DNA from: Agrocybe praecox
Taxonomy: Eukaryota; Basidiomycota; Agaricomycetes; Agaricales; Agrocybaceae
Assembly (NCBI GenBank): GCA_964017145.1
Contig: OZ024840.1
Location: forward strand, 868,001-932,000
Direction: 5' to 3'
DNA length: 64,000 nucleotides
Numbering within the stretch: position 1 is the first letter of the stretch; the number at the start of each line of letters is the position of its first letter. Under the pieces are notes generated by a model that was given only the letters and a program-made list of their open reading frames with translations, did no database searches and was not told where the DNA came from. This document shows positions 26,542 through 54,512 of the stretch, one piece after another. The position numbers and the translations under genes are program-made.

Positions 26542-28034
26542 GAAACACGGCACCAACAATTACCAACCAAGAGCGAAGAATGTTCGCCAACGCATGCCGG
26601 GTCATGTTTAGCTACAAGTTTCGAAGCTTGACAGTCCGGATTTCCATAACATACAGCCAAAATTGGAAGAAAGAAAAACTAAAACTAAAACGGTCGGCGA
26701 TGATTCACTGTGATCAAACCTAAGGTTAACATCGGGAGCCGGGGATATCTGCTTGTGTATTGACGATGGTTTAAGAAAAACACATGAATATGAAATGGAA
26801 AAAGAAGTGAACCAATGAAGATCTAACTGAGCGGGGTATGTACCTGAAAAGAGTGGAATGATGATTCATGAGTGAGTGAACGTGAAGTAAAGCAGGATCA
26901 ATTATCAAGTAACTATTGGTCCCGCTCCTGGTCCCGCTCCTGGTCAATGACAAGTCTCGAGAAAACCGGAGGGATCAGAACCTTCAGCAGTGACAAGACG
27001 GTAACATATCAATGAATACATAAGTGTTCTGCGAGTGACTAGAATAAGAGAATAAAAATCATACCAGGGTAAAACCAAAAAATCATCCCAAGCATAAGAT
27101 AGAGACCTAATAAAACGAATCAGTCAAATTCTATGCCCATGTACGTTAGTGTTGCCGAAGTTCGAGCCAGAACCGTTGCAGAGAACCCGAACCGCCCGAA
27201 CCGAACCCTCGGTTCTGTTCTGTTCGGCGGGTATTGAGAAGATAGATAAGTGGTATCGAAATGTTCGAAAAAATGACATATATTTTGTATGTCTTGGTAC
27301 GTTTATCCACAACTCAGTATGGAGATGTACTAATCTAACTCGATTACAGCATTACATCCTGGTATTAAGCTTGACTACTGCAAGTCAATGTGGGATGATT
27401 CGTCCTTTACAGCTGCGGTTTCGCGCTTCGAGAAAATCGTGAGTTGTTTTTTTACCTGTTCTCTTATATTAATTTTGTTCTAACCATAAATATAGTTCGA
27501 CTCGTATTATAAGGCGCCTAAGAAAGAGTCGAAAGCAGGCTCAAATAAAACATCTACTACTGGTTCGTGTATGCTCTTTTTATTATATAGTCACTTATAT
27601 TTACTTATCTTTTAGATGAATCAGCGAGATTTACGGGATATGGTTCAAATTTTATTCTAACAACGTTGAAGAAGTCATCATCTTTTCAGGAGACACCATC
27701 AGCTGATCCTCGAAAGGAGCTTCGGGAATACATCAATAGTCCGCTGGAGATGGGTATCTCTAATCCTGTCAAATGGTGGGGGGTAAGTTAGCATATCTAA
27801 CTCACTCGTCAGTCACTGGTCACTAAATTTCTGTTAGTATCATACGCAACAGTATCCGACTCTCTCTAAGATTGCTAGAGATTACTTAGCAATTCAAGGG
27901 TCTTCTGTCAGGCGATTGTGTGCCTTTGATATAAAATTGTACAGTAACTTCCGTAAATGATTTGTCAACAAATCACGATAACTTCCGTCTTAGGATAAAT
28001 AATTCATGTACAGTACCTTTGAATAAATACCAGC

Positions 28035-28425
28035 AGTGATTATCCATCCCGCTTCCTACTAGAGACTACATTTATCCGTAGCGCATGGATAAAATAGGCG
28101 GGCAGTTATCCATAGCTCATGGATAGAACAAGCGCATACTTATCAATGCGCGATGGATAAAACATGCGCACATTTATCCATAAATGATGGATAAAACCGC
28201 GGGCAATTATTCATACGTAATGGATAAAACTGGCGGGCAGTTATCCATTCGTTACGCTATGGATAAAATGCACGGGCATTTATCCATGCGTGATGGATAA
28301 AACTGGCGCGCACTTATTCATACATGATAGATAAACTTGCGCACATATATCCATGCGTGATGGATAAAACTGCGGGCAGTTATCCAAGCGCGATGAATAA
28401 AACAGGCGGTCATTTTATCGATAAA
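28035..28425. repeat. Left array of TTTATCCAT/ATGGATAAA palindromes
   Basis: About ten imperfect units of roughly 35-45 bp, each pairing TTATCCAT with ATGGATAAA across a short CG-rich spacer (for example TTATCCATgcgtgATGGATAA). Units are separated by AACTGGCGGGCAG-like linkers. Each unit can fold into a hairpin, and consecutive units can pair with one another. A weaker array mirrors this at the other end of the element. Confidence 0.85.
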
Positions 28426-29439
28426 TTCTTTAATACACGGCATCTAGCTGCCGGATTGGTCAATTCGGATATTTCCGCAACGCATCAAAGATGCTCGTCT
28501 TGCGCTGCGTACCCACCATCATTTGCCCGCGCATTTCTCCGTATTTCTTAATCCTTAGCTGCAGATCTTGTCTTGTGTATTTGTATTAGTAGCTCTGAAT
28601 TTTTATTCCGTATATGTGTAAATAAATCCACGTAGTATATCTAAAAAACAGACGAAGATTTGAAGCAAAAATTAGTGATTCCCGGCGCCAAATTCTGGGT
28701 TTGTTTTGTCCTTTATTGTTTCCATTTTCTATATCCCACCGAATTAAATCTTCAACATAACTTTCATGATGATATATAATTTTGGCTTGATTATATGCGA
28801 CCTTTTTTAAAAAATATGCGGGTGAATTGTGGGAAACCCATGATCATCATTCAAGTTTACAATTGTAAATCATGTTTGAGTATGCACACATTTCAGCACC
28901 ATTCTGACCTTTACTCATTCGTAAACCAATCACCCTGGAAAGTATATCATATGAAAGGCTTAATTTTCCTCTGCAAAAAAATGTATTTATCTGGGCATAA
29001 TATAACATATACAAACCTCTATTATTATTTTTCAGTTCCAATCTCCCAAAACACATAACGGTACCGCGGCCCGTCACACTGAATAGGGTAAATGGCGCGT
29101 ACTTCGGCATTTGCCCGTTTGATCCAGGTTGGAAACTGGCCATCGGGCGGACGCCAACGCGGCCATTCTGATTGGCACTTCTCCAGTAATAAAATCGTCA
29201 TCTTCTGTATATTAAAAAAAGGCGAAGGGAGCGTAGTAGTAGTACCTGTGGGTATGGGGTCGGTAACAAGTAGGCACATGTTTCTTGTATTTGCCATCTA
29301 ACGATGACGAGCGCATACAAACATACATAATGAACAACATTTGTGGATGATAATTCATTGCAAATCATTAGTAAGCGTTGAAAATGAATATATGCTCGTC
29401 TTTCTATCAATAAGCGCCGCACGTAATTTACTAATCCAA

Positions 29440-29660
29440 GGCTGATGGATAAATAATGAATAAATTTGGCGACGATTTATCCATGTGCGGGATGGATAAA
29501 TTCAGCGATGATTTATCCATGCGCGGGATGGATAACTGTACACGGATGGATAAGTACACGGAGACTTATTATACACATGGGAGGGATAATTATACACGGA
29601 TGGATAAGTGCACAGAGGTTTATTATACACATGGGAGGGATGGATTATTTATTCAACCAT
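29440..29660. repeat. Right array of ATGGATAA/TTATCCAT palindromes
   Basis: Repeats of GATGGATAAAT, ATTTATCCATG(T/C)GCGGGATG and a derived subrepeat (ACACGGATGGATAAGT, TTATTATACACATGGGAGGG, present twice) lie just inside the right end of the 27.9-29.7 kb element. With the left array they form subterminal repeats, as expected for transposase-binding sites. Confidence 0.8.
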
Positions 29661-31368
29661 GGCTACTATCGTCATTTGTTGACAAATGAAATACGGAAGT
29701 TACTGTTATTTATATATCAACCTTACAACATCTATTGCTTCTGTTGCGTCAGAACGTGCCTTTTCGAGTGCTGGGATGACAGACGAAATTCGCCGCAACC
29801 GTACAGAGGGTGAAACCTTTGGTGAGGTACAAGTATTAAAGTATGCCTACAAAAGTAATTTCCTACAAGCAGCTGCGGAAGCGGATAAGCATGAAGGAGT
29901 CGAGGTTTTGGAAATTTCAGAAGAGTAGTTATACGTACTTAGTACTGATCCCTCCAAATACACTTATTGGTAAAATATTCGAGGTTCGGCGGTTCGAACC
30001 TGTTCTCGAACATGAACCGAACAAAGAGAACCTGTTCTCATCTGTTCGGTTCTGTTCTTGTTCGGTTCTGACGGGCGCTTGACGGTTCGGGTTCTTGGTT
30101 CTCAAAAAAGGGCAGAGAACCGACCCGAACCGAACTTCGGCAACACTAATGTACGTATCAACTTGACAGCCGAATGCGGGATTGAGTGCCTTACATATCA
30201 AGATAAAGCCTTTTAACCAATTCGATTTACCATCTTGCGCGGTATAATTTACAAGTAGGACTGTGCGTCTCGACTCTCAGCAGGTTTCCGAAAGGATGAT
30301 ATGCAACATCAAACAGAAACATACCGACAAGGAACATAGTGATAGATTCAAACGGATCAAACAAAAGCGTGAGTGGTTTGCCCAGTATCCACGCTAGAGT
30401 GACGATAAAGCTGTACAAGTGCTCGTTGGTAGTGAATACATGTAGTACGAGTAACGAGACTCACGGAAGAACAAAGAGGGCAATTTGCTGCCAGGTATCA
30501 TGGATGACGTCAGGCACGATATTATCCCTTCAACAAAATTAAAGCTGCATGTATGGCTGCTTACTATGATGGACCCAGCTGCAACTCCCAAGCTCCTAGC
30601 CAAGTTATGTTTGTTTGCCATCGTGTCGGTCATGGTGATAAAATTGACTAAGAAAACAAGGATGATGATGCGCTGTTCAACAGCGACGTGTAAATTAAAA
30701 CAAGAAGAAAAAACGGTCGTACCTGCGGCATTGCCGACTAAGGGCAGCAAAATTAGGCCTACAAACTCTTTACTTATGTGTCCTCCTCCCGTCATACCAT
30801 TGATGGAATCAAAAAGCCATGTGGCAGTGAACGCCTTGACCTAGTAGGTATAGTATTATGAGCTCACACAGTCCAGTCAGCTATACTGACATAAGTACTA
30901 TACTCGTACTAGTAGTAGTAGTAGCCCGCAGTTAATGATAGTCGGGAAATAACAGACTCACCACTGTAACAACACACAGAAGACCGACGATCACAGGGAA
31001 ACTTGTAGTTGGCTCCTTTTGCCTTCCCTCTTCATGACCATGAAGAGGAGACAAGGACGAGGGAACTTCAAGTATGACGTCATGTCTTGGAGGGATATAG
31101 TAGCTATTGCGACTAGTACTACTACCCTGTATAAATAATGGATTATCTCCGTCACGGAGAATTGGCTCTAGTGTCGTAGAAGGATAGAGACGGCTGCCAC
31201 CACTTGTGACTTGACTTGAATAAGAAGCCGTGGGTATTTCCCCCTCCATCTCGCTACCGCTCCGACGGCTGGTGGCCCACGCCCACTTACTTCTCGAGTG
31301 CATAAAGAACTTTGGGCGAGGGTATTGGGTCGTGGTGATTGAACGCTCGTCGTACAGGTACCCATGTT

Positions 31369-31939
31369 ACAGTGTACCGTATCTAATGGTACAGTGTGTA
31401 CCTACAGTGTAGCGTATCTAATGGTGCCAGTGCGCACACTGGTGCACTCCAGCAGGGATTTCCATATCGGGATACGGCGAGATATAGTCTCGGCGAAATG
31501 GGGCAGTAGGATTGGGCAGTAGGGTAGGTGGGTGGTATAGGGGGTGTGGTATTGGTAGTAATGGGGTAGGGGTACCTGGAGAATCAGGTAATTGGGGACC
31601 CAAAAAAGCGGTGGGGTAGGGTGGAAAATTTTCACCGTGGGGCGGCGAATTTGGGTCGGCAACTAGAGGGATAGGAAAAGGTGTATTATAGTAGATATAG
31701 TTGTATACTGTCCTGTAGAATGAATTAAAAATACATTTGTAGTAGATGTACAAAAGCGGTCAAAAAAAGCGGTGAGGTAGGGTACAAAATGTTCACCATG
31801 GAGCGGCGAAGTTGGGTCGGCAACTAGAGGGATAGGAAAAGGTGTATTATAGTAGATATAGATGTATACTGTCCCGTAGAATAAATTAAAAATACATTTG
31901 TAGATATACAAAAGTGGCCCAAAAACACATAAGGATACT
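31369..31939. repeat. KDZ-end-like repeats and a 160-bp tandem duplication at the CAX break
   Basis: ACAGTGTACCGTATCTAATG at 31,369 is very similar to the outer end of the KDZ element (ACAGTGTACCATAAGATG on the minus strand at 45,497). It recurs in part at about 31,391 and 31,403. A tandem duplication of 160 bp follows (31,601-31,760 and 31,761-31,920). No gene. The CAX coding sequence ends exactly where this block starts, so it is probably the remnant of another related insertion. Confidence 0.65.
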
Positions 31940-32399
31940 ACACTGTATAGTAACATACGATACAAGGAACGTGTCCAGTGTACCGTATGATACGGATCCA
32001 AAGTCTTCCTTGAACCCCTGTATAAAAGATGTCCCAATATGGATATGGATACTGGCTTCTGGTTGGCTACTGCTCTGGCTCAGATAGTACCAGGCGGCGA
32101 CGTCTCTCCGCCACGCGCCGCCTCAGGGTTAAAGGAATTACCTGATTACACGGTTATAAATTCTAAAAAGATTTCAAGTTCTTTCGGTCAGGAGGTGGTA
32201 TTTCTTGTATTTTCTACTAGCTTGTGTTTTCTGCTAGTTATATCAAATGTCCAAGTTTTTTGTGTCACATGCAAGAGGTTGCAGGAAGAATGTATACAAG
32301 GTCTTATGTGTATGAAAAGAGTGAGTTATAATTGAAACACGTTAGAATGATTGAAGGCGGTGGCAGCATAAAGATTTGTATGGTATCGAAACAAGGTAA

Positions 32400-33198
32400 C
32401 TACATATCAATATTTGTACTTCCCACTGCTGTCGATACCTCTGCAAGAGCTTTCTCAATCTTGTTTTCCAACTCCTCAAATACAAACAGGGATTCACGTT
32501 CAACTTTTAAATGCTCGAGTTCGGTAAGGTAAAGACGGTGGCAGGCATCTTTATACGAAATCCCCAGCCTTTCACGTAGGGCCATGACTTTTGCATGCTG
32601 TTCAAGGATATCATGTTCAGATAATTCCTTGATTTGTGGTCAGAATTTATGCGTGATTATGAAAGTAGAAGTGATATTTACAGGATCAGGGGGAAACTTG
32701 ATTCCTAACTCAGTAATACGATCACTGTTATCCAAGTTGTGTGGAATACCATTCTATATGAATAAAAAAAACCCATGAAAAACAAAACAAATCAGCAGTG
32801 ATATACATGGTGGGTAGCAATTATAACCGCTCAGGAAGTCTGAACGAGTGGCAGAGTAAGTGCCGATACAATGGAGTAAGGTAGAATTGCGCCGCCCAGC
32901 GGCGCCTACGATTCAAGAGACAAAATATATCAAACCACAAACTCACCCCTGTAGGACTCTTGGAAAGCTGTAATTGGACCTTTTTCTTATATTCCGCAGT
33001 CTTGGCGTCGATGTCTTCAACCATAAACGATGGGAAAATAAAAGTTTTCCCATCATTTGTGGTCCGTTGAACGTAGCCGGCAGGAATATCAGCAACAGTT
33101 TTGATGGGGTTGTTGCTGCCATCCTTCCCCTTTCCCTTGCCTTTTCCCTTCGCGACTTTTTTCTTCGACTCTGGCATAGGATTGTTGGTATTTGGCAA
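32400..33198 (-). CDS. KDZ accessory protein: basic N-terminus, helical C-terminus
   Basis: Three exons in phase (33198-32947, 32753-32682, 32627-32400) give 183 residues, although the first intron is 193 nt and could hide another exon. The N-terminus is Lys/Gly-rich (KKKVAKGKGKGKGKDG), followed by AGYVQRTTNDGKTFIFPSFM and a Lys-rich helix. The last exon is a predicted coiled helix (HAKVMALRERLGISYKDACH … FEELENKIEKALAEV). No family recognised. The position just inside the left end of the KDZ element and the intact frame suggest an element-encoded DNA-binding or architectural factor, which is inference. Confidence 0.55.
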
Positions 33199-33417
33199 GT
33201 ATTTTGGGGGTGAGACTTTTTGTTGGAATACCTAATTAACCTCGAAATAGCACATGTGATGGCTATGATTGTTTATCAATCAAGTGACGTGACAGCGTGA
33301 TGTTGAATTTGGCCGATTGATGATCATGATTCACCACCCACCTTCTGTCATTCCGTTCCCATATTTCTTTTCCCACTACCTGTCCGTCTTCGATTCACGC
33401 CGCTTCTTCGTCTAACA

Positions 33418-35972
33418 ATGGCAAAAAAATATGATGCGGATTACCTCACCCAAAAAATGATAACTTTTGAGGGGGAATTCCGAACGGCACTGGAGAAAAA
33501 TACCCATATTCTTCTTTTGGGATCATTGAATGAAAAAGTGGTAAGCAAAGGATATTATTTCAAAATATATCCTATGTTTAATCCTTTTACAAAGTGGCAC
33601 GTCGTTAAGCGCGTAATGCGGGAGAAACCCGAGTTATCGAGTCACCCAACCATTGGTGGGCAGACCTTGCTAGCCAAGGTTCTCCCGGTGTACAGGGAAT
33701 GCCACACCAACGAGGCCAAGAACGAAACTGATCTACGCCAGGCTATTCAAGAGATTGTCCGAAGTCATTCTGTGGATGGAAATGTCGAAGGAAGGGCAAC
33801 TGTCACTGAAGAGGGCAAACATGGCGCCGGAGCACACACATCATCCAGCAAAGATGCGTCGACAGCAAGCAACAAAAACAACAATGAAGAGACAGTATCA
33901 AGGAAAAGCGGCCCCTCTAGCGCCGCCAGTGTGTTGACCACCAAGACCACTGAGCAAAACACAGCGGCGTCAGAGAACAACAAAGGAAGTGCAACGGGCA
34001 TAACCAAAAAAGCCAAAGCGACAATGAAGACAGCAGTCTTGGCGGCGTCTGTGTCGGCGCTACCCAAAGAGAAGAAACGTAAGTATTTTATTATTACTAT
34101 TGAAATATAGACTACTAATGAATAAATAATATACACATATAGAACAAGAAGAGCCACCACGCAAGAAAATGCGAGCAGGTGAAGATAGGACTGATACCGA
34201 TGAAGATGCACCAAAGAAGAAGGGCAAGGGCAAGGGCAAGAAGAAGCAGACAGCGGCGACATCGGCGGCGCATTCCGACAGCGAAATTGAGATTGTCAAA
34301 ATCGTTGCCAATCCATCCGCCAGCGATAGCATCAAGATTAAGAAGGAAAAGATGGACAGAGCATTCGGAAAGGCGGAGGAGATTGCAAGAGCACAAGCTG
34401 CTGCACCAAAGCGGATGGCGCCGAAAGGAGCGGCGCCAAAGCATAAGCGCCCCCATTACAGCGATGAGGAGTTCTCTGACGAAGACGCCAACGGTGAAGA
34501 CGACGGTGAGGAGGGTGATGATGGAGAGGAGAATAGCAAGATCGAGGTTCGTCCTCCAATCGTGCTCACTGGTGCATCTGTCGAGGCAAAGGTGAAGAGC
34601 CTCGCTGCCTACGGTCGTCCTGCGCAGTGCGAGCGATGTAGGTTGAAAAAAAAACAATGCTCGCCCAAACTCCCGAACACGTCTTCATTCAAGGTTGGCG
34701 ATGATGGTCTCATCGGTGTTGCATGTGTTGCGTGCCAAACGGGCAAGAAGCGCTGTATCTGGTATGGACTACCAATGTTCATGCCCAAGGAGGCAACCTA
34801 CCAGCTGGCGGTTCCCAGAAATGTGAAGACGGAAGGTACGACAAGGGTCGTTATCGCAGATAAAGGTAAGTAACTTGCATTACATGCATTTATTTGAAAG
34901 GAACTCACTCGTAATATATTTAGGCGCCGAGAATGTCGCCGCCTTGGAGCGCCGCCTTATCGATCTTGAAACAAAGTTTGCCGCGCATGAAACGGATCAC
35001 ACTGCGCTCCAGCTTAGGGTTAAGCAGGCGGAGACATATGTTGCCTCCGTGGAGACCAAGTTTACCAACGCACAAGAAAAGTGGAGGCTTGTCAAAGCCG
35101 ACATTGTAAAGGACGCAAAGGGCATGCGAACCAGCATCGACAAATTGAAGACCAACGTGAACGCCTTGAAGATCGCCCAGGGGGATACGTCAGCGACTGA
35201 CCTTGCAGAGGTGAAGACCATCGCTGATCTGGCTTTGAAAGAAAGTCAAAACACCAAGGCTTGGATGGCCAACATGGATAAGTTGTTTAAGGTGGTGATG
35301 AAAAAATCGATCGCCGCTTCCCCTCTGTCTGCTGCATCCTCCTCTGCCGCTAGCTCCCCCGCCGCCACTGACGCCGCTACAACTGAGGTTATCGACCTCC
35401 CCCTTGATTCCCTTGCTTTGGTGTATGGTGGTGACGAGGAAACGAGTTCAAGCAGTGGGGAGGAAAGTGCGATGGACGTCACTGGGGATCACGACGTTTC
35501 TGATGCAGAGTTGGATGGTGAAAACGTCATCGCCCCCCCCATACCCACAGCAAGCACCAACAACACCAGCACCGATGCCCAAGGAAAGACTGATCAAGAA
35601 ATGCAAGACCCAGTCATTATCTCTGGCGCCGCCAATGACGCCGCCTCGCCATCGCACAACAACCCTGTTCCAGCTGAGACAGATATTGAGATGCAGGACA
35701 CAGAAACTGACATCCCCCCGGTCCATGAAAGCAGCACTATCAAAATTCCTGCATCATCCACCACTGACATTACATCTGTCGCCGCCTCGCCCGCCGCCTC
35801 GCCCTCTGCCTCTGCCTCTGCCTCATCTGCCGCTTTCGCCTCCAATATCACTGTTTTGCCCAACAGCACTGTTGGGCTCGTTCCCTCGACCTCCAATATT
35901 TCATTGCCCCAGGTAGATGCAAGGACCCTATCTAACATATTCGACGAAGTCGTTGACTACGAAGATGCTTGA
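33418..35972 (+). CDS. KDZ accessory protein with Cys-cluster and coiled coil
   Basis: Exons 33418-34078, 34143-34865 and 34924-35972 join in phase to give 810 residues. After a folded-looking N-terminal part (residues 1-110) come Ser/Lys-rich tracts, basic GKGKGKKK stretches and acidic runs. Then follows a Zn-cluster-like motif: CERCRLKKKQCSPKLP, and about 30 residues later CVACQTGKKRCIWYGLPMFM. The third exon begins with a heptad-like coiled coil (ERRLIDLETKFAAHETDHTA) and ends in a long Ser/Ala tail. The Cys arrangement recalls fungal binuclear clusters but with wider spacing. This composition is common next to agaricomycete transposons, and a DNA-binding partner of the transposase is plausible but unproven. 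Confidence 0.75.
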
Positions 35973-36219
35973 AGGCGGTGGCTTTTTTTTTTTTGATATT
36001 TATGTAAATATTTGTCTTGTGATCTTGGTGTGTACTAGCTAGTACACACCTACTTGAAATTTTATTAAACTTATTCTTGTGCTCATTACTTGGACCATTC
36101 TACACAACCAATGTATTGATCATACAAGAGTAAGTGCATAGAAAGAATCAAATGATTCAACTTCAGTAATGTAAGATAAGAATCAAGTGATACAACTTAA
36201 GCAATATAAGAGATATTTA

Positions 36220-37867
36220 TTAAGCCTCTCTTCGCCGAGGCTTTCTTATACGTTTCTCAGATACCTGCCATCTTGCTGCTTCTTCAAGAGCTTGGTCATC
36301 TGGCCCGAGTCTTTTTCTGCCCTGCTTATGTTTCACATTTGAAGGCAAATGTGGATCTTCATTATGAAGATGCGCCATCTGAGGCGCCGTCTGGAGCGCC
36401 GCCAACGCATGACCACTGTTTGTAACTGGTAAACCTAGGAGTGGCGACATCCTTTGAGAAAGAAGGTCATTAGGCGATGAATAGATTGAGGGAAGGCCGT
36501 TACTGTTGATCAATGAAGAGTTCATGTTTGTTGGTGAGTTGATCAAATGGTGGGAACGCATTTGTGAGTTGGGTGGTCTTTGTTGAGTATCTTCATGTTG
36601 ATGGCAGTGTGTAGTTGTCCTAACAGATGCAATTTGATCTTGTACAAGCAATGGCAATTGACCAGTTGGCGGCGCCAGGGGCGCCGGAGAGGTGGCTGAG
36701 GATGCCATTTGACGTTCTTTGAGTAGAATTGGATCAATAATAATGTCCTGGGCTACAACTTGGTTGTGCGGCCCACCAATAGAATCATGCATCCCAGTGC
36801 AGTTCTGAAGTTGAAAACCATCGTCTGTGTTCATGTCAATATCCGCGATAACAGAATCATGCATGGCAGTGCTGTTCTGGACATTGCCTCTGTTCATGTC
36901 GATATCCGGAATAACAGGAGATACTGGCGGCGACTGCGGCGGCGCCTCCGGCAATAACATATTGTCAGATACTATCATTTCGTCGGAGGAAGAGGTGACA
37001 GAAAGAGATGGATCTGTAGGGGTAGGCATAGTATAAAGGCCACTCATATCTAACATCTGTTCATGAGGGCCTGGGGCCTCACGGGATTTCCGTTTCGATG
37101 CTTCGCTGTTTGATTTTTCGGGAGCATTGCGGTCTGGGGCAATGAACTCACTTTCTTCTTCTTCAATCTCATCTTTGTTAGGATATGGCGCCTCCATCAA
37201 CATTCCTTTGCGCCGCCTTGTAGTGACCCTTTTGAATCGAAAGACCTGCTCCAAAGAAAATGTTTGCTGACGTTCCCAAATGTGATCAAAGAATCTTTTC
37301 ATCTCATCCAGTGTGAGACTCCTGGGGTCTTTGAATGACCAGTTCTTGGGAAAGTACCGCTTGTCAAAGAACTGTTTTTGATCTTCTACAATGAGTCCAT
37401 AGGGCACAGGTTGATTGCGGCCAGATGCCATTTCTACAATAGAAGGTAAGGTATTGCACAGGAGGCGGCGCTTGGTGCAGCACCCATCCGGAAAAGTAAG
37501 ACTTACCATAATGAAATGCAAGATACTTGCGAAAAACAGCTTCATAATCTGTTTTCGATACCTTTCCACTAGTATGAAAAATGGAGGTAATTTTCGGAAA
37601 ACCTGTCGGTCGATCCATTTCGATATATCTTGCATATAATTCGGTGGCCTGATAGTTGAACCTCGCCTTCACACCATCCCTCCGCTCCAAAAGATGTTCA
37701 ACGTAAGCAAAAATGTGCCGATGCCAATCGCCGACCATCTCCTCATTCTCTTGCTCAAAGGTATCAGCTTTTACACCAAGGAGGCTGGCCATATTATCAT
37801 GCCTAGTTCCCATGAGTCCTAATTCAAAGGCATAGCAAAGAAGATTGCTCACACTTGAATGCCCCAT
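36220..37867 (-). CDS. KDZ accessory protein, unknown family
   Basis: Two exons, 37867-37507 and 37433-36220, join in phase for 524 residues. The N-terminal 200 residues look folded: an opening helix MGHSSVSNLLCYAFELGLMG, then DWHRHIFAYVEHLLERRDGV, RFNYQATELYARYIEMDRPT, and later NWSFKDPRSLTLDEMKRFFD. The rest is disordered, rich in Pro/Ser/Asn with repeated IPDIDMN / IADIDMN pieces, and ends in a basic patch (KHKQGRKRLGPDD … EKRIRKPRRREA). No domain recognised. The paired GGCGCC motifs in its 3' half encode Ala/Pro insertions. Convergent with the gene at 33.4-36.0 kb. Confidence 0.7.
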
Positions 37868-38060
37868 GTTCCATTTTCACTTTTTGATAACACAAAATTT
37901 AAGGACAGTAGTCCCATTTCAAGATAATTGCGTCTTGCAGCATGATCAAGACGTTTATAAATAAATTTCTTAGCTAACCTGAGAGAGTTACATTAATAAC
38001 TAGGACTGGGTAATACCAGGCGGCACCGCAGGTGCCACCCATGATCGCGCATTTGAGGGA

Positions 38061-38673
38061 TTAGATGACCCACTTGTGTTTTATATGTTCTGGATTTCCA
38101 TCCTTCTTTCTACGTTCTATCTCTTTGTCAATTGCCCTCTCCTCCTGGGGCGTGAGCCTCGATATGACCCTCCCAATCGCTCTGGATCGGTAGGCAAACC
38201 ATCCTTCTGTTTTACTATCAGCAGTCTCCAATCCCATAAGCTGCGCAATTTCCGCAAAGACTTCGTTGTTTTTTTGTTGCCATATAATGTCAGATTTCTT
38301 CACAATGAATGATGGTTGTGACTCGTCCGTGGATTTCTGGAGCCTCCACGTATTGCGTACATAAGAAAGTAGATCCTGAAAGAATCAAGTAAATTAGCAT
38401 GCTGTTGTAAGGATGAGAATAACATGCTTAGCGCCTCACCTCAACTTTGTGTTGTTTCTCAAAAGAGTTAAACGAAGCACCACGGGACAGGACCCAAAAA
38501 TTAAAAAGTTCAACGCAAAGCTCTCCAACAATAATATGACGCCTTTCAGCTGCTGTTGGTGCTTCCAAGTACTTTGTCTTGTATGGCAAAATGATAGCCA
38601 ATTCCTCCTCATCATATTTGGGCGCCTTGGTTCGCGAGGAGTTTATGTATAGGTCGGGGTCGAAGTCAGTCAT
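38061..38673 (-). CDS. Small KDZ accessory protein, 182 residues
   Basis: Exons 38673-38440 and 38375-38061 join in phase 0. The product is hydrophilic and helical: YDEEELAIILPYKTKYLEAP, AAERRHIIVGELCVELFNFW, then KKSDIIWQQKNNEVFAEIAQ and a charged C-terminus ending IKHKWVI. I do not recognise it. Its start lies about 200 bp from the start of the transposase gene on the opposite strand, so the two may share a divergent promoter. Confidence 0.65.
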
Positions 38674-38880
38674 GTCTGGGGATATGAGTAGCGGAAGGAG
38701 ATTGTGGTTGAGGTATATAAATTATGTATCCCCTAAAAAGTGTGGCACATGAAAAATAAACAAAAACATCTGGAAACATCTGGATACATATTAGGGGAGG
38801 GTGAAATTTTCATTACTATGCCCAAAACAGTGGAGCTCATCTGTTTCATCCTTCTTCTACATTCTTTGTCAAACAACCTA

Positions 38881-41800
38881 ATGGCACCCGGACAGTCAAA
38901 AAAACACCGGCAGGCTCGGAGGCGTGTCGAGCAAACAGATTTAGAAGCACAATCAGTTCTACGGGTCCGTCGAACAACATATGCCAGAAGGAATGGCAAG
39001 CAAACTTCGAAGACTGTGTTCCAACCTTTGTTCACACGTGTAGAAAGGGCATCTGAGTCTGATTCAGACTCAGATAATGATAATATTCACAACAACAACC
39101 ATTCAAATGGTTTTGATAATGATGGTAACATGTCGGACGGTATGACTTCCAACCTTGAAGACCCCCAAATAGCTGAGAAACGGACGCGGAAGGTGCGAAA
39201 ATGTTATTTGATGAGTGGGCGCCTATTAACTAATTTTAGACACAACATCATTATATTCGGGAATTTGTGGACCGAATTGACGATCTGTTACTTGGATTAC
39301 TGAGTCGTGAATCACAGACAAAGGAAGATTTTACCTGTGGCAAAAGTACGAACGGAAATACCGCAGTCTGGCGTTGCAAGGACTGTAGCTTAGGAAGTGT
39401 GATGTGTCGTGAGTGTATGCGCCATGCTCACTGTGAAAATCCCTTTCACAAGATTCAGCACTGGTCTGGTGGACACTTTCGCCCTGCAGAGTTATGGGAA
39501 GTTGAAACATATCTATTGGTAAAACATCAAAAAGACAAAGCTGTCTGTGCCAGCCTGCAGCTCAATATGATCTACTTGGAGGAGCAGGAAAAGACAAAAG
39601 ACACAATAGAGCAGGAACGGCTGCGGGCAATATATGCAGATCAAGTAGGCGGCGGGGCAGGCGGCGCTATGGATGTTGACAACACTGACGATATTATACC
39701 AACAACGGCAACATATACTCCTCAAGATATTTTGAATGAACCGGACCAACAAACATTTGATGACGGAGATGAGGCATTTGACCAATATCTGGAGAAACTT
39801 CATCTCGCCAACCAGTTGAAAAACAACATCATACCAGTAACAGAGGACAACGGCGCCGCCGAGAGCGCCCCCCCTCAACCCGCAGGCGCTACAAATGTAA
39901 TGGAAGATGGGGATGATACCTTTGATCAGGCAGATGAAGCTGTACAAGCACTTCCACAATACTTAGGACCAGAAACAAATGCTGTGGACGAACTTGATCA
40001 AGTTCTTCATGAAGATAGTCAACGCGGTAAACGACCCACACGCGATATGTTTTATAACAGATATGTTCGTGTTGTGCATACCAATGGTCTACACAATCTT
40101 GCCATGGTCCATTGCCTTTGCCATGGAGAGAGACAACTGCCAATCGACCTCCTATATAACCGCTTGGTTCCCTCCAGTTTCCAACAAGTGAAAACCATTT
40201 TCACGACCCATGTTCTTGATTATTATCGCCTTAGCAATCTTGAACTAAAGGCCTCTGCTTATCACTTTTACAATCTTTTGCGCCGCCAAACAGCGCCGAT
40301 GGCACCGGCGCAAGTGTTGGACCTTTATTCAGTATTCAGAAGGATGACACGACTGTGGCGTTGGATGAAAAAGCTTAAATGGGCGGGATATGGATGTCAT
40401 GGCAAAGATGTAGCACATGTGCAAGACGGCGAACTAGCAATTTTCTGTGTGGCATGTCCCCAGACAGATGCAAAAAACAAGAATGTCGCTGATAATTGGC
40501 AAGAAGATGAACATGCATGGGTTTACAAACGCGTTCTTGTGGCCGATGGAAATTTCAAGGCAGACCATGTAAAAGCCAAATCACCTTCGCAAGATGTATG
40601 GCTTTCAGAAGGGTCTGGAATGGACCCTAAACGTTCAAAATATTGGGCATTTTTAAAGACTGCTCTTGAACGCTTCACAGTAAGTTACCATATTATAAAG
40701 CGCCGCGGCTTGTGGGGCAGTGGGCGCCGCAGTATTGATGTTATTGTCCACAGAAAGCACCATGTGAAAATACCTTTCGAGCAATTATGAATGCTCTGCT
40801 TGCGTCCAAGGTTTGCGATGTAACAGGAAAGGTAGCTATGGCTTGCGCTCGACATGGATGCTACTGCCCTGGCTCCCTCGTTGATCTATATCATGGTGAA
40901 CAACAAAAGAATGTCGACTTTGCACTTCTTGAAGCGATTAAAAATGTCCATCCACAGCAAGGAGTTTTGCTTATATACGACATCGCTTGCCAATATTTTG
41001 TGCATCTTGTGGAACGCATTGGAGCGAAGTTACCAGAAGGCTTAACAGTTGAAAGTGCAATCGGTCTCTTTCATGTACATGCTCACAAGGACGAATGCTT
41101 CTTTCGGTTTGCAACAAGTTTCATTCAAGGCGCCGCCATATGTGATGGCGAAATATTGGAGTCACTATGGTCTATTCTCAATGCTATCTCACACTCTGCA
41201 CGAACAGCAACCTTGGCACATCGTGCTGAAATGCTGGATGACCATGCCTGTGATTCAAACCACAAGAAGATCCTTGCAATGATAATTACCCTTTGCAAAA
41301 AATTCAAAAATGCAGACCTCACTTGCCAGAAGTGGAACGAGGATTATGAGAAGCAGTCCAACACAGTCAGTGAAGAAATCCTTACAGAATGGCGGCGCGA
41401 GGTTGTACATGCCGAGAATACCAGGCACATCAATCCCGCAGCAATGGATATCTACATGGCCAGGGTTGTAAGCGCTGGTGCGCCGCAAGAGGCGCCGATT
41501 CCTACCGATGCCTCCACCAACGGTGTTGAAGCATATTTTGACCTTGTTATTGTTGTGGAGAGAACTCAGTAAGTCACACAAAACTATATTCAATAATGTT
41601 ATGCTAAGTTTTGTTAGGGCGGAAATCAAATTGTCAAACCGTCTATATACAAAACAACCAAGAGAGGAGTTACGACACAAGATAGAGGCAACCCGCTTAA
41701 CATTGCAAGGCTTGCTCCTGAAACTAGCCCAATTGCAGGAACAAGCAGGTATCACCGAGATTCACACAACAGCAGACACAAATGCGGCAAACGATTTCAT

Positions 41801-42729
41801 CTTTCAGTGGGAAGATGTCGCCGACGAGAGCGGCGCCGAGGACAATAATGATGATTCCCCTAACAGCAATCCAGGTTTACAGATGCCCATTTTTGAAGAC
41901 ATTACTTATCCTGAAAATCGAAGACTTATTATCCCGTCAAATTTGAATGCTGATGCTAGGTTGGCAAAACATGAGCTTTGTACTAGGCAGAAGCAGGCAT
42001 CTAGTGAGCTCAACCATCTTAGGGATTTAATTGCGGAAAAGTCCTTTCAATATACCGGCGTTATTCGCATTGGACGGAAGCATATGAAACTCCGATCTCG
42101 CAACTTAATTCGACAAATTAATCACCAGATTGCTATTCACTCCTCCGTGTACAATATGTGCCGCAGCAAAATGATTATGTTGGGTGCCGACACATCCTTA
42201 ATGGAAGACAAATTCAGAGTCCTCACCAAGGATGACATCAAATCAAGTACAGCACTCCTCGACCCTAACACTCCTGGTTCAACCCAAATACAACTATCAT
42301 GGATATGGCAGAGTGTACGGACTCGTATTCTTCCTTCGCGAGCGCCGGCAGACGCGCCGCAAGGCGACGAAGAGATTCAAGACCCTGCAACTGTTATGGA
42401 ATGTAAGTTATTCTTCAATGTAATGACTCCTGAATATGACCTAACAAGAGGTAGTCAAGCGTGTTCATTGGCTGCGCGCGCGGGCTCAAGCAGATAGATG
42501 GCGAGAAGAGCAACTCTTGCTTACATATGAAATGCAATGGACAGTACGCTCCTTTTTGAACAAGAGTCGGACATGGAAGAGATATGCGGCGGAGGGCGCC
42601 GCCAGTGGCGCCACTCATCCAGGAGGACTTGCATACGCTGATCGCCAAGCTACCACGTGGCGTGCGCTTGCCATATTATCCGATCGGGAGTTCCGGTCCA
42701 CCAATAAGAATTATGTATCACCTTTGTAA
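38881..42729 (+). CDS. KDZ transposase with CxC2 cysteine cluster, intact
   Basis: Five exons (38881-39192, 39240-40679, 40754-41568, 41618-42402, 42455-42729) join in phase and give 1208 residues. An N-terminal basic and acidic linker is followed by the CxC2 cluster: CGKSTNGNTAVWRCKDC, CRECMRHAHCENPFHKIQHW, a zinc-binding module typical of KDZ transposases. The catalytic half shows APCENTFRAIMNALLASKVC, LVDLYHGEQQKNVDFALLEA, LLIYDIACQYFVHLVERIG and GEILESLWSILNAIS, which carry the conserved acidic residues of the RNase H-like fold. The C-terminal helices end with KRVHWLRARAQADRWREEQ. KDZ enzymes cut and paste DNA elements in fungi and other eukaryotes. All splice sites and the full frame are intact, so the element could be autonomous. 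Confidence 0.9.
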
Positions 42730-42835
42730 TAAGTATATCAAATTGATCACATATAATAAACTTTTTTTTTTTGGCTTATTCCCACATCTCACATCTCTTT
42801 GCTTCCTGTGTTACTTTGTCCTTTGTCTGTTTAAA

Positions 42836-44653
42836 ATGCCTCGCAAGCGTGTTCTTCGACCCTTTACACCATTTAATTTGCAGCACCAAAGTGGAATAGG
42901 CGATGAAGAAACGTATCAAGATGTGCAAGATTCCATCTACTACTGTGAAGCACGTTGTCGCTCCATTGTTGCAGCTATTCTATTGGCTGCACCAGAGAAT
43001 TGCAAGTGGATGCAACTATATCTACAAAGCGAGCTTGTATGTTATATTTTAATCTTGGAGGGCATACATAAAATTAACATCTTGAAGTATGTGATTACCT
43101 CATTTATAGGGATCATGACTGCAGTGTCACGAGTTGTCGATATACCGCTTGTTATTCGCTCCCTGGTCGATGGGTTATTGATGTTACAAGAGGAATGTTT
43201 GCCCGTGCCTTTTGAAGCAGACTTTATCCAGATGATTGAAGCTGGAACTGGAGAAGGCTTTGGGAAGGTGGTCCATAATTTTCACCTACAATGGTGGACT
43301 GCAGCAAGGCAACCCAGTAAAAGTTGGTTGCTCACTTTCGAAAATATTTTTGAATGTGTGGAACATTACGAGAAGGAACTTCAAGAAGAACAACGGCCCA
43401 AGATACCTATCTATATAGTTCCCAATCCCCAGATCGCCAGTGGAACATCTTCATGCGCCGCTTCCGGCGCCGTTGGGGGCGCCGCCTTCTCGAGGAACCC
43501 ATACCAAATCATGGCAGCAAACTCAACCCAGCAGCTTAAGGATTTGTATAACTTGGTTAATGGGTATCACCGTCTAAGCGAAGGAAAGGTTCAGATCGCC
43601 GCTCGCCGCACCGCTACATTATATCTGCTGCTGGATGCCATCATGCATAAGGAAACAGTTGACACACCAGTACCTGGGCCCATTCCTAAAGGACAGAAAG
43701 GGACCGTTGCTTTGGCCATTGCGCAAAAGAGCAAAGGCCTGTTGAATGCTGGAAAGGCTCAAATCCCGGCAGAACAGCAATGGTCTTATGGCACCTTCTT
43801 GACGAAACCGGATGTTCTTGCCTTGGTTCATAAACCACTTCAAGAATTGCATACGGGTTACAATACAACACATGAATGGGAAACAATGTCTGGTATTGAC
43901 ACAGTTGGTGGACAACCAAATGACATTCAGTCAAACATGAATGACGGCGCCGCCAATTGCGCCGCCAGCGACAGCGCCTCCATTCCCGACAACAGTATTC
44001 CTGCCCGAAGTGCTAATTTTCACCCAAATAGGTCTTTGCTTAAATTGCCCAGTGATGTTAATGCTAGGGTAAACTATTTATCAAGACATCCAGAACAGCG
44101 AGAGAAAATGGATAAACTCTGGATTGAAAACAACACACTATGGGACGCAAACGGGGTATATATTGGAGTGGCGGGTTCCAAGAGTGTCAGCACATCCAAT
44201 CAACACACTCCATCCCCTGACAGCGCCGCACATGGCGCCACTCCCAAAATTTCAGCACCTACTCTGACGTCCCTCAATAGCCCACAGCCCCACCCATCGA
44301 TAGGTTTAGCGGCACTTTATAACGACGACGACAGCGATATCGATTCTTGCGGGACAAATGACACCTCACCATTGCAATCTGTACATGAAGACATTGTCAT
44401 GTCTCTTGCTGATATGTTCAGTGACCATAGCAGTGATGATGTCAGTCTTTTGTCTGATGATGACCAGAATGGAATTGGAGGCGATAGGGATGATGGCATA
44501 TTATCAGCTCGAAGTATACAGGCTCCAACACGCGCCGCTCAGAGCGCCGCCATTCATCAACCTTACACTGCTGCAGATTTTAGTTTTGTTCCTGATGATG
44601 CATTCGAAGAGGAAAATCTCCATTCTCATTCTAGTTACTCAGACAGTGAATGA
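42836..44653 (+). CDS. KDZ accessory protein, large, unknown
   Basis: The start at 42836 (MPRKRVLRPFTPFNLQ) follows a pyrimidine-rich leader only 106 bp after the transposase stop. An in-frame 51-nt intron (43037-43087) is likely but not required, since it contains no stop. The N-terminal 200 residues appear folded (CEARCRSIVAAILLAAPENC … VVDIPLVIRSLVDGLLMLQE … FHLQWWTAARQPSKSWLLTF). A second ordered piece contains IAARRTATLYLLLDAIMHKE and AEQQWSYGTFLTKPDVLALV; the remainder is Ser/Asp-rich. GGCGCC pairs insert Ala/Gly runs such as CAASGAVGGAA. Same strand as, and close to, the transposase, suggesting a functional partnership. Confidence 0.7.
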   Translation: MPRKRVLRPFTPFNLQHQSGIGDEETYQDVQDSIYYCEARCRSIVAAILLAAPENCKWMQLYLQSELVCYILILEGIHKINILKYVITSFIGIMTAVSRVVDIPLVIRSLVDGLLMLQEECLPVPFEADFIQMIEAGTGEGFGKVVHNFHLQWWTAARQPSKSWLLTFENIFECVEHYEKELQEEQRPKIPIYIVPNPQIASGTSSCAASGAVGGAAFSRNPYQIMAANSTQQLKDLYNLVNGYHRLSEGKVQIAARRTATLYLLLDAIMHKETVDTPVPGPIPKGQKGTVALAIAQKSKGLLNAGKAQIPAEQQWSYGTFLTKPDVLALVHKPLQELHTGYNTTHEWETMSGIDTVGGQPNDIQSNMNDGAANCAASDSASIPDNSIPARSANFHPNRSLLKLPSDVNARVNYLSRHPEQREKMDKLWIENNTLWDANGVYIGVAGSKSVSTSNQHTPSPDSAAHGATPKISAPTLTSLNSPQPHPSIGLAALYNDDDSDIDSCGTNDTSPLQSVHEDIVMSLADMFSDHSSDDVSLLSDDDQNGIGGDRDDGILSARSIQAPTRAAQSAAIHQPYTAADFSFVPDDAFEEENLHSHSSYSDSE

Positions 44654-45487
44654 TATATGTATAACAGTATATATAAATGACTCCTATTTTCTTTCATATC
44701 AATTATGGTGTGTGAGCTGGCGCACTTATCATAATCATTTTTAGATACACAAAGCCTTTTAAAATTCTGTTAGGGCTTGGTTGAATTTTCACATCTAACT
44801 GTGAACCGCCCTTAAAATAAGTAACTGTGTCCCTATCCTATTGTGCTTTTCATGCACCTGTCAAGTTTCCTCATTTGCCTAGCGGCGAGAAAAGCGGCGC
44901 CAATACCGCGTCCACAATGAGCAGTGTTTTTGTGCTTTTATCCCCATTTGGCCACATATCCATGAATTATCACTACTAATTTGATTGGCGGCGAAGCGCA
45001 CGGCGCTTATTTATGTTCTCACATAGTGAATGGTTTTTGTAATATTATCCCCATTTGATCTCATACAGATGATAGGTCGCCATTGTTTGAGGTGGTGGCA
45101 AACACAGTGGTGCGCGGCGCTGAAACCCTGCACCTATGGTATAGGTTTCCTGCAAGTATATTGTAGTTTCTGTGCACATCAAAGGTATAATGTCCTCCAC
45201 AACATACAATGCTACGAGACAACACATTTGTAAATTTTAATTATATGTAAGCGCCGCCGTTGAGCGCTGAGTGGCAGTTGTGTGCACATCAAAGGTATAA
45301 CGTTCTCTTGAAGACAATACTAATGAGAGAGCATATTTGTAAATTTTAATTATATGTAAGCGCCGCCGCCGAGCGCTGAGCAGCAGCAAACATTTCCTAT
45401 TTAAGCCCTACCGCGACCAGCGGTTCAAGGAATTCTTTGAACCCGTGTCTTATGATACACTGGATCGACCCCTGGTTCACATCTTAT
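44654..45487. repeat. Right subterminal region of the KDZ element with tandem repeats
   Basis: No coding sequence. Two copies of a roughly 112-bp unit (about 45,165-45,275 and 45,276-45,385) share TGTGCACATCAAAGGTATAA and AATTTTAATTATATGTAAGC, and each ends in the dyad GCGCCGCC…GAGCGCTGAG. More GGCGGCG/GGCGCC pairs lie at 44,880-44,900, 44,988-45,007 and 45,112. This is the expected place for transposase-binding sites. Confidence 0.7.
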
Positions 45488-45772
45488 GGTACACTGTGGT
45501 GTACTTAGCTGGTGTAGAATCCACTGTAACACGAGCACAGATAGCTTTTTAGCAGCCTGATGGACGCAAGATGGACGCAACAAATGGCCAGGTAATACTC
45601 ACAGAAACGGGTATGAACAGAAGCAAGAAATTAATCCCTACTCATTGAGTCAGAACAGAGAAGAAACACTTCTTGGGAACGTACTTGAAGCCAATATGAT
45701 TGTTTTTACGTCCTGCCAAACACTAGTAAGACCTCGGTTCTCTCTCCCTGGAGTTAGGTTGTTTTCTTCCAT

Positions 45773-46554
45773 AGTAATCAAGGATATCCCTGAGACGTGG
45801 AAGTTGGAAAGAGAAGAAGTGATCGAACCCGGTTAAGCCGATTGCAGAGACTTTGTGCGGGCTGTGTGAGATGCACGTTGTACAAAGAATAGGAATAGGC
45901 ACAATTATAGCAGTGCGCTGTTGTAAATGAACTTCTTCAATTTTATTTATAGTAGTACAAGTGACTCAAATACACAGCCATCATGGCACTATCGACGGCG
46001 CACTTGCTGCTTTAAGATAAATGTTTCAAGTAAACTCAGGACAAGCGAGAGAGCAAAGAGAAGTTTGCGAGACCCCTTGCAAGCTTGCAAGAGCGTATTC
46101 TACTTTAAATTAATTTCCCCGTAGTCAGTGGTATTAGAAGAATATAAGTATGAGTTTCTGTGCCACCCGGATGACTGGTACAGTTTGTGCGCCCCCCTTT
46201 GTGTTATAAATGCGACATATACAGATCAATTATCGCGGCCCGGTGTGATTAATTGAAAAAGGTATCATAAATGCCTATACTGACTTTGCACAAACTCTAC
46301 ACACATCAGGAAGTATATAACATAAATTATTAGAGAAACAGAGCCATTAAATTACTACCTATAATGATGGTTCTTAGGAACACGTCCACACAAGTCACGG
46401 TGGAGTTTCCACTTGAATTCAATGGCGTGTGAAATAGATTTTAATCGTCGCGGATTGCCGAATTGGACTTGTAAATTAATGTTACCCAACTTGTAAGCTG
46501 GAGTTATTAAAACAGATATCACCGCAGCTGATATTTAATGATATCTTAGGAAAA
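45773..46554. other. Upstream region of the CAX gene, nothing else identified
   Basis: This stretch lies upstream of the CAX start codon and should contain its promoter. It is A/T-rich with no clear TATA element that I could single out. Short open frames carry no domain. Confidence 0.35.
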
Positions 46555-49880: not shown

Positions 49881-50079
49881 TCATTGGTTGCCACTATCGG
49901 CATTGTTTGGTCCGCTGTCGGGGGCTGAAATTTCAATGTTGCAGCCAAATAGTTGAATCAATGATTCAAATGATCGGGAATCCCCATCCTTGACCCCGGT
50001 CCCCATTCAAGGATTGACATTCCACCTCCGCAGTGGTTGGAGCATCTCTCGTTTCTCTACGCCTGATAGTATCTCTTGC

Positions 50080-51398
50080 ATGGCACCCACGACGCGCTCA
50101 CGCCGCTCAAATCAGAAAGTCCGACCCGATTTGAACAATAGTCAAAACACATTGAACTTGAGCCAAATCCTTCATCTTCCGGATGAAATATACCTAGAAA
50201 TTGCATCTCAAGTACCTGAAGCACCAGTACCCACAGATTACGATGATAAAAATGTTGATTTGAAAGCATGCTCGTCAAGACACGCCACTCTTGCGTCATT
50301 ATCCCAAACATGTCGGTCGCTCCGACGTATTTTCCTTAGATATTTATGGGAGCGTATTGAAGTCCTGGAAGGGATGCCAACTAGCGATGGCGACTTGCCT
50401 GTTCTGGATATCCGGGAGTCACGGGCTGGTAAAAACTCTGCCACCAGGATTCGACACGGCAGCAAAGCAAAGAAATTTGCAACGGAACTCATTAGGCAGC
50501 TAGAAATTGTGACCATTCGAGACCCGACTCTTGCAAAATGTGTTAGGTAGGCCATTAGTTGAAGACATCCAATATATTCAGACTAATTCGAAGCTAATTC
50601 TATCAGAATTGTCAATATAGTTATCACAGATCATTCCATTGCATTTGTGCTCCAGGAACTTGCGCGCTGTCTATCGCATTTTACACATCTGCACACACTC
50701 CAAATTTGCTTCTTCCCTCCGTCTTTTTACCTCGGCCGGGGATTACCCATAGACGAGGCGTTTCTCAATCATATTTATCCACAGATCCGGAATTTACACC
50801 TTTCACCTGGACGTTCTGGTCCCATTCTTCGGGCTTGTCCTAATGTTCGACATTTATCGTGGCGCACATTAGGAAAATCTTACCCCGGGCCTATCCTTCG
50901 AGCCGTTTGGCTAGAACCTTTACTTAAAGTAGAAGTCTTTGAAACGGTCTGGATGAGCGATATCCTAGCTGATTGTAAGCAATTGAACATCATAATTGAC
51001 AATCTTTGCTAACCTTGAGAAAGGCATCCCGGACTGTATACCGCACGTATGTGAAATTACGTTGGATTGTCGGCAATTTATCTCAAGCTCGGGCTCGATA
51101 CCCGTATGTTTTGACTCCTTTTTATGATAAACGTCTAATATACGAACAGTTGATTGGAAATTTACAACCACTGTCCAAGCTTCAGCATCTTCATACCATT
51201 ACAATTAGAGTTCACAAGAACTCGGAGGAAGATATTATACCAGAGACACTGCCACGATGGGTGACGTGGGGATGGGACATATTCTCCGCGCACAAGAATT
51301 CCATAAATTTCAAGAAGACCCTCATACTAATTTATGGAGACGAGGTGAAGGAAACTTATGTCATATACGGAAACAAAAAGCCTGCTAGACTGATGTGA
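50080..51398 (+). CDS. F-box domain protein, intact
   Basis: Four exons in phase (50080-50546, 50607-50974, 51024-51103, 51150-51398) give 387 residues. Residues 30-90 carry an F-box-like motif: LHLPDEIYLEIASQV, then LASLSQTCRSLRRIFLRYLW and ERIEVLEG. The remainder has the weak leucine-rich pattern typical of agaricomycete F-box proteins (THLHTLQICFFPPSF, IRNLHLSPGRSGPILRACPN, LQHLHTITIRVHKNSEEDII). F-box proteins act as substrate adaptors of SCF ubiquitin ligases. The neighbour downstream is a decayed copy with the same layout. Confidence 0.75.
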
Positions 51399-53399: not shown

Positions 53400-54440
53400 T
53401 CAATTCATTTTCGGTGCGGTGCAAAAATGCTTATGGTAAGACCATGCAGCCGTCTGATGATCTGCGTTGCAGTAGTAGGTGGCTTTGCACGTTGCGCATC
53501 TCTGCAATTCTTTGCCATCGCAGGGAGGGGCACCACAATACCCACACCAATGCACCGTCTCCTTCTGATCCCACCTTTCCTTCACATTCTTTGCGACCTC
53601 TTTGAGCCATTCATCGGTGGGAGCAGTGTTGATTATCCTCTCACTGAGCTTTGCTGTTTTGAAGTTGTTCTGTTCAGCAAATTTATCCAAGCGACCCACG
53701 TATTGGTGGATTGGTTCAAGAACGAATAAACCGCGCCCTTTGAAACCACGTCCAACATTTCCGAATTGCAATGATGCTAGATCGAGAATTGTATCGATTT
53801 TGGTTCCCGGAGAAGAAAATCCCAACACGGCATGTTGGATTACATGCTCTCCGCCAGAGATGAGTGTCTGATTATCGGGAAGAACCGCGGCCATCGTCAT
53901 TGACTTTGGCCCAATAAGATTCATCTCTACGATAAGCCTGTCGCTGGCAAGAGTAGTATATGTCCTCGTTTTTCCTTCCTTGTCGATGGTTCGCACACGA
54001 ACACGCGTGAATTCTGGAAAAAGATCGACGAGATACTGGAAGAGCACCACAGTTGTAAAGCAGCCATCATGGTTTCTAGCCTGCCAGTAATATGTTTCCA
54101 ATTCCTTCGGCGTCAAATCCTTCACACTGGCATGGTGATTGGTGGAAGGAGGAGGCAACATGTTGGAAGGTAAATCACGGTCATTTGTCTGTAACTCTGA
54201 TGGAGATGCTAAGGATTTGTCAAACACTAAGCCTGTTCTCTGGACGGTGCACTCTTGCCAGTGAGGAGTTAACGCCCTGATGGTTTGAAAATCGCCAGTC
54301 GTTGCAACTTCCCGTAATTTAGCGTGTCTAAATCGTGGCTCCGTTGTCGCACGTTCGTAGTTGAGAAGGAGGGATATGTCGTATAGATCAATCAATCCTG
54401 CCTGGTACTTGCGCCTCAACTCTGCTGGGTCCGGTTCCAT
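53400..54440 (-). CDS. MYND zinc-finger protein
   Basis: Intronless frame of 346 residues from MEPDPAELRRKYQAGL. An ATG 24 codons upstream is less likely because it reads through a poor leader. The C-terminus has a classic MYND finger: CGYCGAPPCDGKELQRCATC, YYCNADHQTAAWSYHKHFC, with all eight Cys/His ligands present. The central part is a conserved-looking fold (ETYYWQARNHDGCFTTVVLF, LVDLFPEFTRVRVRTIDKEG) seen in agaricomycete MYND proteins of unknown role. MYND fingers bind proline-rich peptides in regulatory complexes. No intron or lesion seen. Confidence 0.8.
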   Translation of the reverse strand: MEPDPAELRRKYQAGLIDLYDISLLLNYERATTEPRFRHAKLREVATTGDFQTIRALTPHWQECTVQRTGLVFDKSLASPSELQTNDRDLPSNMLPPPSTNHHASVKDLTPKELETYYWQARNHDGCFTTVVLFQYLVDLFPEFTRVRVRTIDKEGKTRTYTTLASDRLIVEMNLIGPKSMTMAAVLPDNQTLISGGEHVIQHAVLGFSSPGTKIDTILDLASLQFGNVGRGFKGRGLFVLEPIHQYVGRLDKFAEQNNFKTAKLSERIINTAPTDEWLKEVAKNVKERWDQKETVHWCGYCGAPPCDGKELQRCATCKATYYCNADHQTAAWSYHKHFCTAPKMN

Positions 54441-54512
54441 ACGTATGGAGGGGTAAAACCAAATTATTATCACCCCACGATGTCTGGACTCTGGGTCAAA
54501 AAACGGACACAA

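Follow-up and report, generated by a model that had tools for sequence, protein, structure and literature searches.

Two pieces of a CAX exchanger sequence and a KDZ transposon with unmatched flanks in an agaric-like genome

Vacuolar calcium/proton exchangers of the CAX/VCX1 family are described by the models PF01699 and TIGR00378, and in yeast VCX1 the residues E302 and H303 are crucial for transport and for structure, according to the portion of PMC7869505 available to us. Kyakuja transposons, as presented in the accessible part of PMC12730594, encode a KDZ transposase, have CA..TG termini and are flanked by 7-bp target duplications. Ectopic recombination can yield unmatched target duplications, as described for Galileo of Drosophila (PMC2775673, available in part). 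We analyzed a 64,000-nucleotide stretch of genomic DNA, the window (C1:868001-932000), which contains two pieces of CAX sequence and several transposable elements (Table 1), and searched the genome of 59 Mb in 347 contigs with its parts. A first-pass annotation had read the locus as one calcium/proton exchanger gene split over 19 kb by nested transposons. We found that the window probably holds the remains of one CAX gene, a duplicate of a gene on contig C7, that has suffered a real deletion.

Table 1. Features of the broken CAX locus and its transposable elements (positions are those of the window)
Feature	Position	Strand	Evidence
CAX 3' piece, last exon (SDPSGFLETCH, stop)	26944..26981	-	splice model
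CAX 3' piece, exon (LYLMLGMIFWFYPG)	27065..27106	-	splice model
hAT-like element (ends TAGTGTTGCCGAAG), 3,002 bp, in CAX second-last intron	27147..30148		junctions, inverted repeats
Repeat nested in intronic element (bounds approximate), arms 27941-28007 and 29640-29706	27906..29737		inverted arms
CAX 3' piece, exon (VNYTAQDGKSNWLKGFILI)	30195..30260	-	splice model
CAX 3' piece, exon (IVTLAWILGKPLTLLFDPFESITMFL)	30325..30410	-	splice model
CAX 3' piece, exon	30465..30487	-	splice model
CAX 3' piece, exon, strongly altered, E and H of GNAAEH lost	30565..30647	-	splice model, homologue alignment
CAX 3' piece, exon (..ISKEFVGLILLPLVGNAA)	30723..30840	-	splice model; length equals paralogue's
CAX 3' piece, remaining part of loop exon (YDERSITTTQYPRPKF..)	30962..31354	-	splice model
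E2 remnant, left end (CAGGTACC..), 571 bp	31355..31925	+	copies elsewhere
KDZ (Kyakuja-type) transposon, 13,586 bp, termini complete (CAGCTAAG..TTATGTG), without matching target duplication	31926..45511	transposase +	C9, C11 and C2 copies, Pfam, junctions
KDZ element ORF, CxC2 cysteine cluster (PF18803, 1.2e-17)	39240..40790	+	Pfam
KDZ transposase domain ORF (PF18758, 1.6e-38)	40739..41572	+	Pfam
CAX 5' piece, exon 3, first 12 bases (WILH), cut by KDZ end	45512..45523	-	splice model, junctions
CAX 5' piece, exon 2 (RINFLLLFIPVS)	45603..45637	-	splice model; 28/35 bases equal paralogue's
CAX 5' piece, exon 1 (MEENNLTPGRENRGLTSVWQDVKTIILAS)	45685..45772	-	splice model; 71% DNA match to C7 paralogue

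The 5' piece reads from MEENN to WILH over 45 codons. The first-pass annotation had placed the N-terminal CAX exons at 45,772-45,498; minus-strand exons do lie there, but the coding sequence stops at 45512 with WILH, and the QLST that had been appended to it is the terminus of the KDZ element. This terminus, CAGCTAAG, starts 9 of the 11 left-end loci checked, that of the window among them. Because the exons are short and gave just an E of 0.6 alone in a tblastn search of the window, the DNA match is what identifies them: when bases 45512-46000 were compared with the whole genome, two matches were returned, the piece itself and C7:1774878-1775017 (71%, E 2.8e-11). The 45-residue piece was too short to discriminate by protein ranking, in which the C7 paralogue came 9th, and the domain search found no match to the Na_Ca_ex repeat in it.

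The 3' piece comprises eight exons from 31354 to 26944, with 282 codons open until the stop and GT-AG borders at every intron. Here the exons, strand and order proposed earlier (31,368-26,944) stood, whereas the start had to be moved to 31354 (YDERS..), the preceding bases being a terminus of another element, E2. Six of the eight exons have the same length as in the C7 paralogue; the loop exon has 393 bases against 306, and another 83 against 77. The piece matched the cax model TIGR00378 with an E of 4.4e-36 and 124.8 bits, below the curated cut-off of 211.15, and contained one Na_Ca_ex repeat, while two such stretches were detected in the paralogue. The window copy lacks what marks a CAX member, namely two Na_Ca_ex repeats, GNA(V/A)E motifs with their catalytic Glu and a score above the curated cut-off, and is a broken CAX member by descent.

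The large element next to the 5' piece belongs to the KDZ superfamily, its PF18758 match reaching 133 bits against a cut-off of 26.6. Full copies elsewhere in the genome have the 7-bp duplications and CA..TG termini of Kyakuja, and their duplications match on both sides (CACGAAC on C9, AATAATT on C11 and AACTGGC on C2). The window copy is without a duplication: of its 7-bp flanks, the one facing CAX is TCTACAC and the one facing E2 is TTTTTGG. Over three stretches compared, it was 98.9-99.6% identical to the C11 copy and 98.7-99.2% to the C9 copy, and in these stretches no mosaic of the two was clearly seen. Six more long ORFs inside the element (window 33307-35972, 36220-37876 and 42560-44653) had no Pfam domain above the cut-off, and one of them has the Cys cluster CERCRLKKKQC; these six are possibly cargo of the element. 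The 59-Mb genome has at least 176 matches to the KDZ domain, a strong expansion; a full-length KDZ search was set aside, as the window, C9 and C11 copies were absent from its output.

The KDZ element had been described as sitting exactly between the two halves of the gene. It does lie between them, but not as the sole occupant, since 571 bp of E2 separate it from the 3' piece. Over 567-571 bp the E2 remnant was 95.6-97.2% identical to eight of nine other ends, the ninth being a partial match at 85%. Copies of E2 have matched 7-bp duplications on C3 (AACCCTG), C6 (GAAATTC) and C7 (GTGGGTG), and no KDZ domain was found inside these three copies among the matches listed. E2 probably belongs to the KDZ superfamily, because its terminal 113 bp are common (89-92%) to paired ends that flank a KDZ domain on C9 and C10. 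The E2 copies (L021-L027; C3, C6, C7) measure ~5.5 to 13 kb, and their ends hold several tandem units of ~161 and ~325 bp.

Both CAX pieces lie on the same strand in the right order, and their GT-AG introns agree in phase, as had been noted from the first reading. The proposal of a single former gene was likewise borne out by a common closest relative, by intron positions and by a comparable DNA divergence of both pieces from the C7 paralogue; at the DNA level, we found no indication that the halves came from different parent genes. The C7 gene is an intact CAX of 466 residues (355.5 bits against the cut-off of 211.15) with yeast VCX1 (4k1c) as its best solved relative, and its nearest proteins are agaric (Agrocybe pediades 75%, Gymnopilus junonius 73%). 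When 601 bases of the 3' piece were searched against the whole genome at the DNA level, only the match to itself was returned. When six exchanger loci were compared by local blastn, C7 was the best, with blocks of 70-84% that included the 3' flank, and one weak block at another locus (E 0.03). By protein, C7 had the top score among 216 alignments to 212 proteins; in the genome protein search, the top score outside the window fell on C8, at an exchanger that is more distantly related (40%, one long exon). The link between the 3' piece and C7 hence rests on the protein and local DNA comparisons, not on the genome-wide DNA search. The 3' piece was sister to the C7 gene in a tree of 173 rows (95/93) and grouped with it in a tree of 31 rows with the odd stretch removed (97/91), on a long branch in both. 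Since the DNA matches of both pieces, and the protein scores and trees of the 3' piece, point to C7, the two pieces very probably represent one former duplicate of the C7 gene. The alternative clade, in which the window copy pairs with the second Agrocybe paralogue instead, was 7.3 log units lower and was not rejected (p-AU 0.15). It is also conceivable that the two pieces stem from different CAX genes joined by rearrangement between KDZ copies, and such inter-locus recombination would likewise give unmatched KDZ flanks. We regard this as most improbable, as the pieces have a common closest relative from which they differ to a similar degree at the DNA level (5' piece 71%, 3' piece and its flank 70-84% in blocks), and no second broken copy with the complementary parts turned up in the genome searches.

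Relative to the C7 gene, 1,182 genomic bases are absent between the pieces, with 528 coding bases or 176 codons, and this missing stretch is the first exchanger repeat. Both cuts in the CAX sequence coincide with exact transposon termini, that of the KDZ element after residue H in exon 3 and that of E2 before residue Y in the loop exon. A tblastn search of the window with three full CAX proteins gave no CAX middle, the best match wholly within that region having an E of 1.0. The middle of the paralogue had 16 matches at six loci of the genome: six in the C7 gene itself, two at C7:1.872 Mb, three each on C8 and C4, and one each on C5 and C11. The loci on C4, C5 and C11, which are new, each also match the second half of CAX, and this genome-wide search returned no lone CAX middle fragment. 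A simple tear by insertion, as first proposed, found no support: instead of matching duplications and a complete target, the locus has the differing flanks TCTACAC and TTTTTGG, an E2 remnant inside, and a transporter whose first half, with the 176 codons, is gone. Because three other full KDZ copies have matching duplications and the window copy does not, the unmatched flanks point to a deletion at the transposon border, via KDZ-KDZ recombination or aberrant transposition.

Recombination between two KDZ copies has, in our estimate, an even chance of being the deletion step. One KDZ copy would have been present in exon 3 of the CAX gene and another in E2, and their recombination would have dropped everything between them, that is, the 176 codons and the rest of E2. 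The outcome would be a single KDZ element with one flank from each site and, as the end state, a non-functional pseudogene. Such an event would account in one step for the complete termini, the unmatched flanks and the loss; against it, a precursor with two KDZ copies was not seen, and the KDZ element had no clear mosaic of the C9 and C11 copies in the stretches compared. As a more tentative possibility, an aberrant (alternative) transposition may have occurred, in which one KDZ end attacks a new site and deletes the DNA up to its other side, so that the element keeps its original site at one border and meets a new one at the other. A deletion border that falls exactly at a complete KDZ terminus without matching duplication is in line with this, and so is alternative transposition in maize, which leaves an element with one unmatched end (PMC3744419, in the part available). 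E2 and KDZ moreover have like termini and 7-bp duplications, so their ends might act jointly, and a single event would give identical junctions. The junctions accordingly cannot tell the two mechanisms apart, and what was available of the literature on KDZ-linked deletions contained no report of aberrant transposition for KDZ elements. A more general proposal, that KDZ elements delete neighbouring DNA when moving by using the ends of separate elements (here KDZ and its E2 relative), appears doubtful to us; if it were true, clean-bordered deletions that remove genes would be a regular product of KDZ expansion in mushroom genomes.

The mismatched flanks might instead reflect an assembly artefact, in which the flanks of two near-identical KDZ copies were joined and the CAX middle dropped, and the 98.7-99.6% likeness of the C9 and C11 copies in the stretches compared would favor such an error. 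We consider it quite unlikely, since the join unites parts of one gene in the right order and strand, matched duplications flank the three other full KDZ copies examined, and the dropped middle is absent from the genome search. With a real deletion as the preferred reading, the loss would be recent, because the KDZ element of the window is 98.7-99.6% identical to its copies on C9 and C11 in the stretches compared. With the KDZ element ~0.4-1.3% and E2 ~3-4% from their copies, the KDZ event looks the younger.

We also examined the state of the surviving coding sequence. The first GNA(V/A)E motif of the window copy is missing and the second, GNAAEH in 171 of 171 homologues, reads GNAAVN. The altered exon at 30565-30647 has kept its frame and is 6 bases longer than that of the paralogue. 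We counted changes at 90 near-invariant columns, after dropping those before residue 298 where the loop exon was misplaced in the fragment alignment, and found 21 changed in the 3' piece and 2 in the C7 gene; among the homologues the median was 1 and the highest count 12. The changes affected 11 of the 13 conserved columns after GNAA and 10 of the 77 elsewhere (P 5e-7, a value that is too small as the region was chosen afterwards). For the membrane part of the 3' piece against C7, dN was 0.171 and dS 1.157 (NG86, 162 codons; YN00 0.175/1.024), and for the whole 3' piece dN was 0.330 and dS 1.322 (NG86, 248 codons). Since dN/dS of the membrane part is about 0.15, constraint acted over part of the joint history of the copies. 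These comparisons of sequence show that the duplicate diverged fast and lost the E-H of the second repeat.

An exchanger of the CAX fold that lacks the first repeat is not expected to function, and this counts against the reading of the 3' piece as a working half-gene that makes a second-half protein from an internal start. Such a half-gene would agree with the 282 open codons and the intact introns, with the membrane-part dN/dS of about 0.15, and with an in-frame ATG that follows the first 17 codons. We nevertheless hold it to be very unlikely: the E and H of 171/171 homologues are lost, 21/90 near-invariant positions are changed where the homologues have a median of 1 and at most 12, and the KDZ element is so recent that stops would not be expected in any case. 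We therefore judge the window copy, from its sequence, to be a non-functional pseudogene.

The second-last intron of the 3' piece contains a 3,002-bp element that divides this piece in turn and has another repeat nested inside. The element is hAT-like, as it starts with TAGTGTTGCCGAAG, ends with the inverted repeat of it, and is flanked by the 8-bp duplication ACGTACAT at 30149-30156 and 27139-27146. The splice sites of this intron are intact, and the element on its own could have left the gene unharmed. At several other loci the paired ends lie ~646 bp apart, which suggests a basic form of that size. Within the nested repeat, at window 28069-28421, a unit with ATGGATAAAAC occurs eight times at intervals of mostly 33-39 bases. 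Elsewhere in the window, two minus-strand ORFs at 13244-13774 and 16812-17267 are alike (YYQAW.D.FK.AC), without a Pfam match, and are probably neighbouring paralogues. Two regions near the locus, 49957-50550 and 53400-54515, hold an F-box-like match just below the cut-off and a MYND-finger protein, respectively.

The locus is an ordinary dead gene produced by a known type of event, resolved to the base, and no new kind of system. It records gene loss to DNA transposons in layers that can be ordered, namely a fast-evolving duplicate, an older E2 and a recent KDZ element, and in an agaric-like genome it defines the termini of KDZ elements exactly, along with their 7-bp target duplications; the flanks of one KDZ copy record a deletion. 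An intact CAX paralogue is retained, so the effect of the loss need not be large. Compared with CAX/VCX1 exchangers (PF01699, TIGR00378), the 3' piece corresponds to the model's second half, while the window copy is without the first repeat, has GNAAVN for GNAAEH and remains under the cut-off. The KDZ element resembles Kyakuja in its transposase, termini and the duplications of its copies; the Kyakuja families in the available part of PMC12730594 carry a TET/JBP domain and have no TIRs, whereas none of the ten ORFs scanned in the window element has that domain and its ends are weakly alike as inverted repeats. Alternative transposition of Ac/Ds, from what is accessible of PMC3744419, was shown for hAT and not KDZ elements, and for the window the reciprocal product is not available; in both cases one end lies on a non-matching flank, tied in Ac/Ds to deletion or duplication. 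The Galileo case in the accessible part of PMC2775673 is an inversion with swapped duplications, as opposed to a deletion whose partner junction is gone, and the two loci have in common a complete element with mismatched target duplications.
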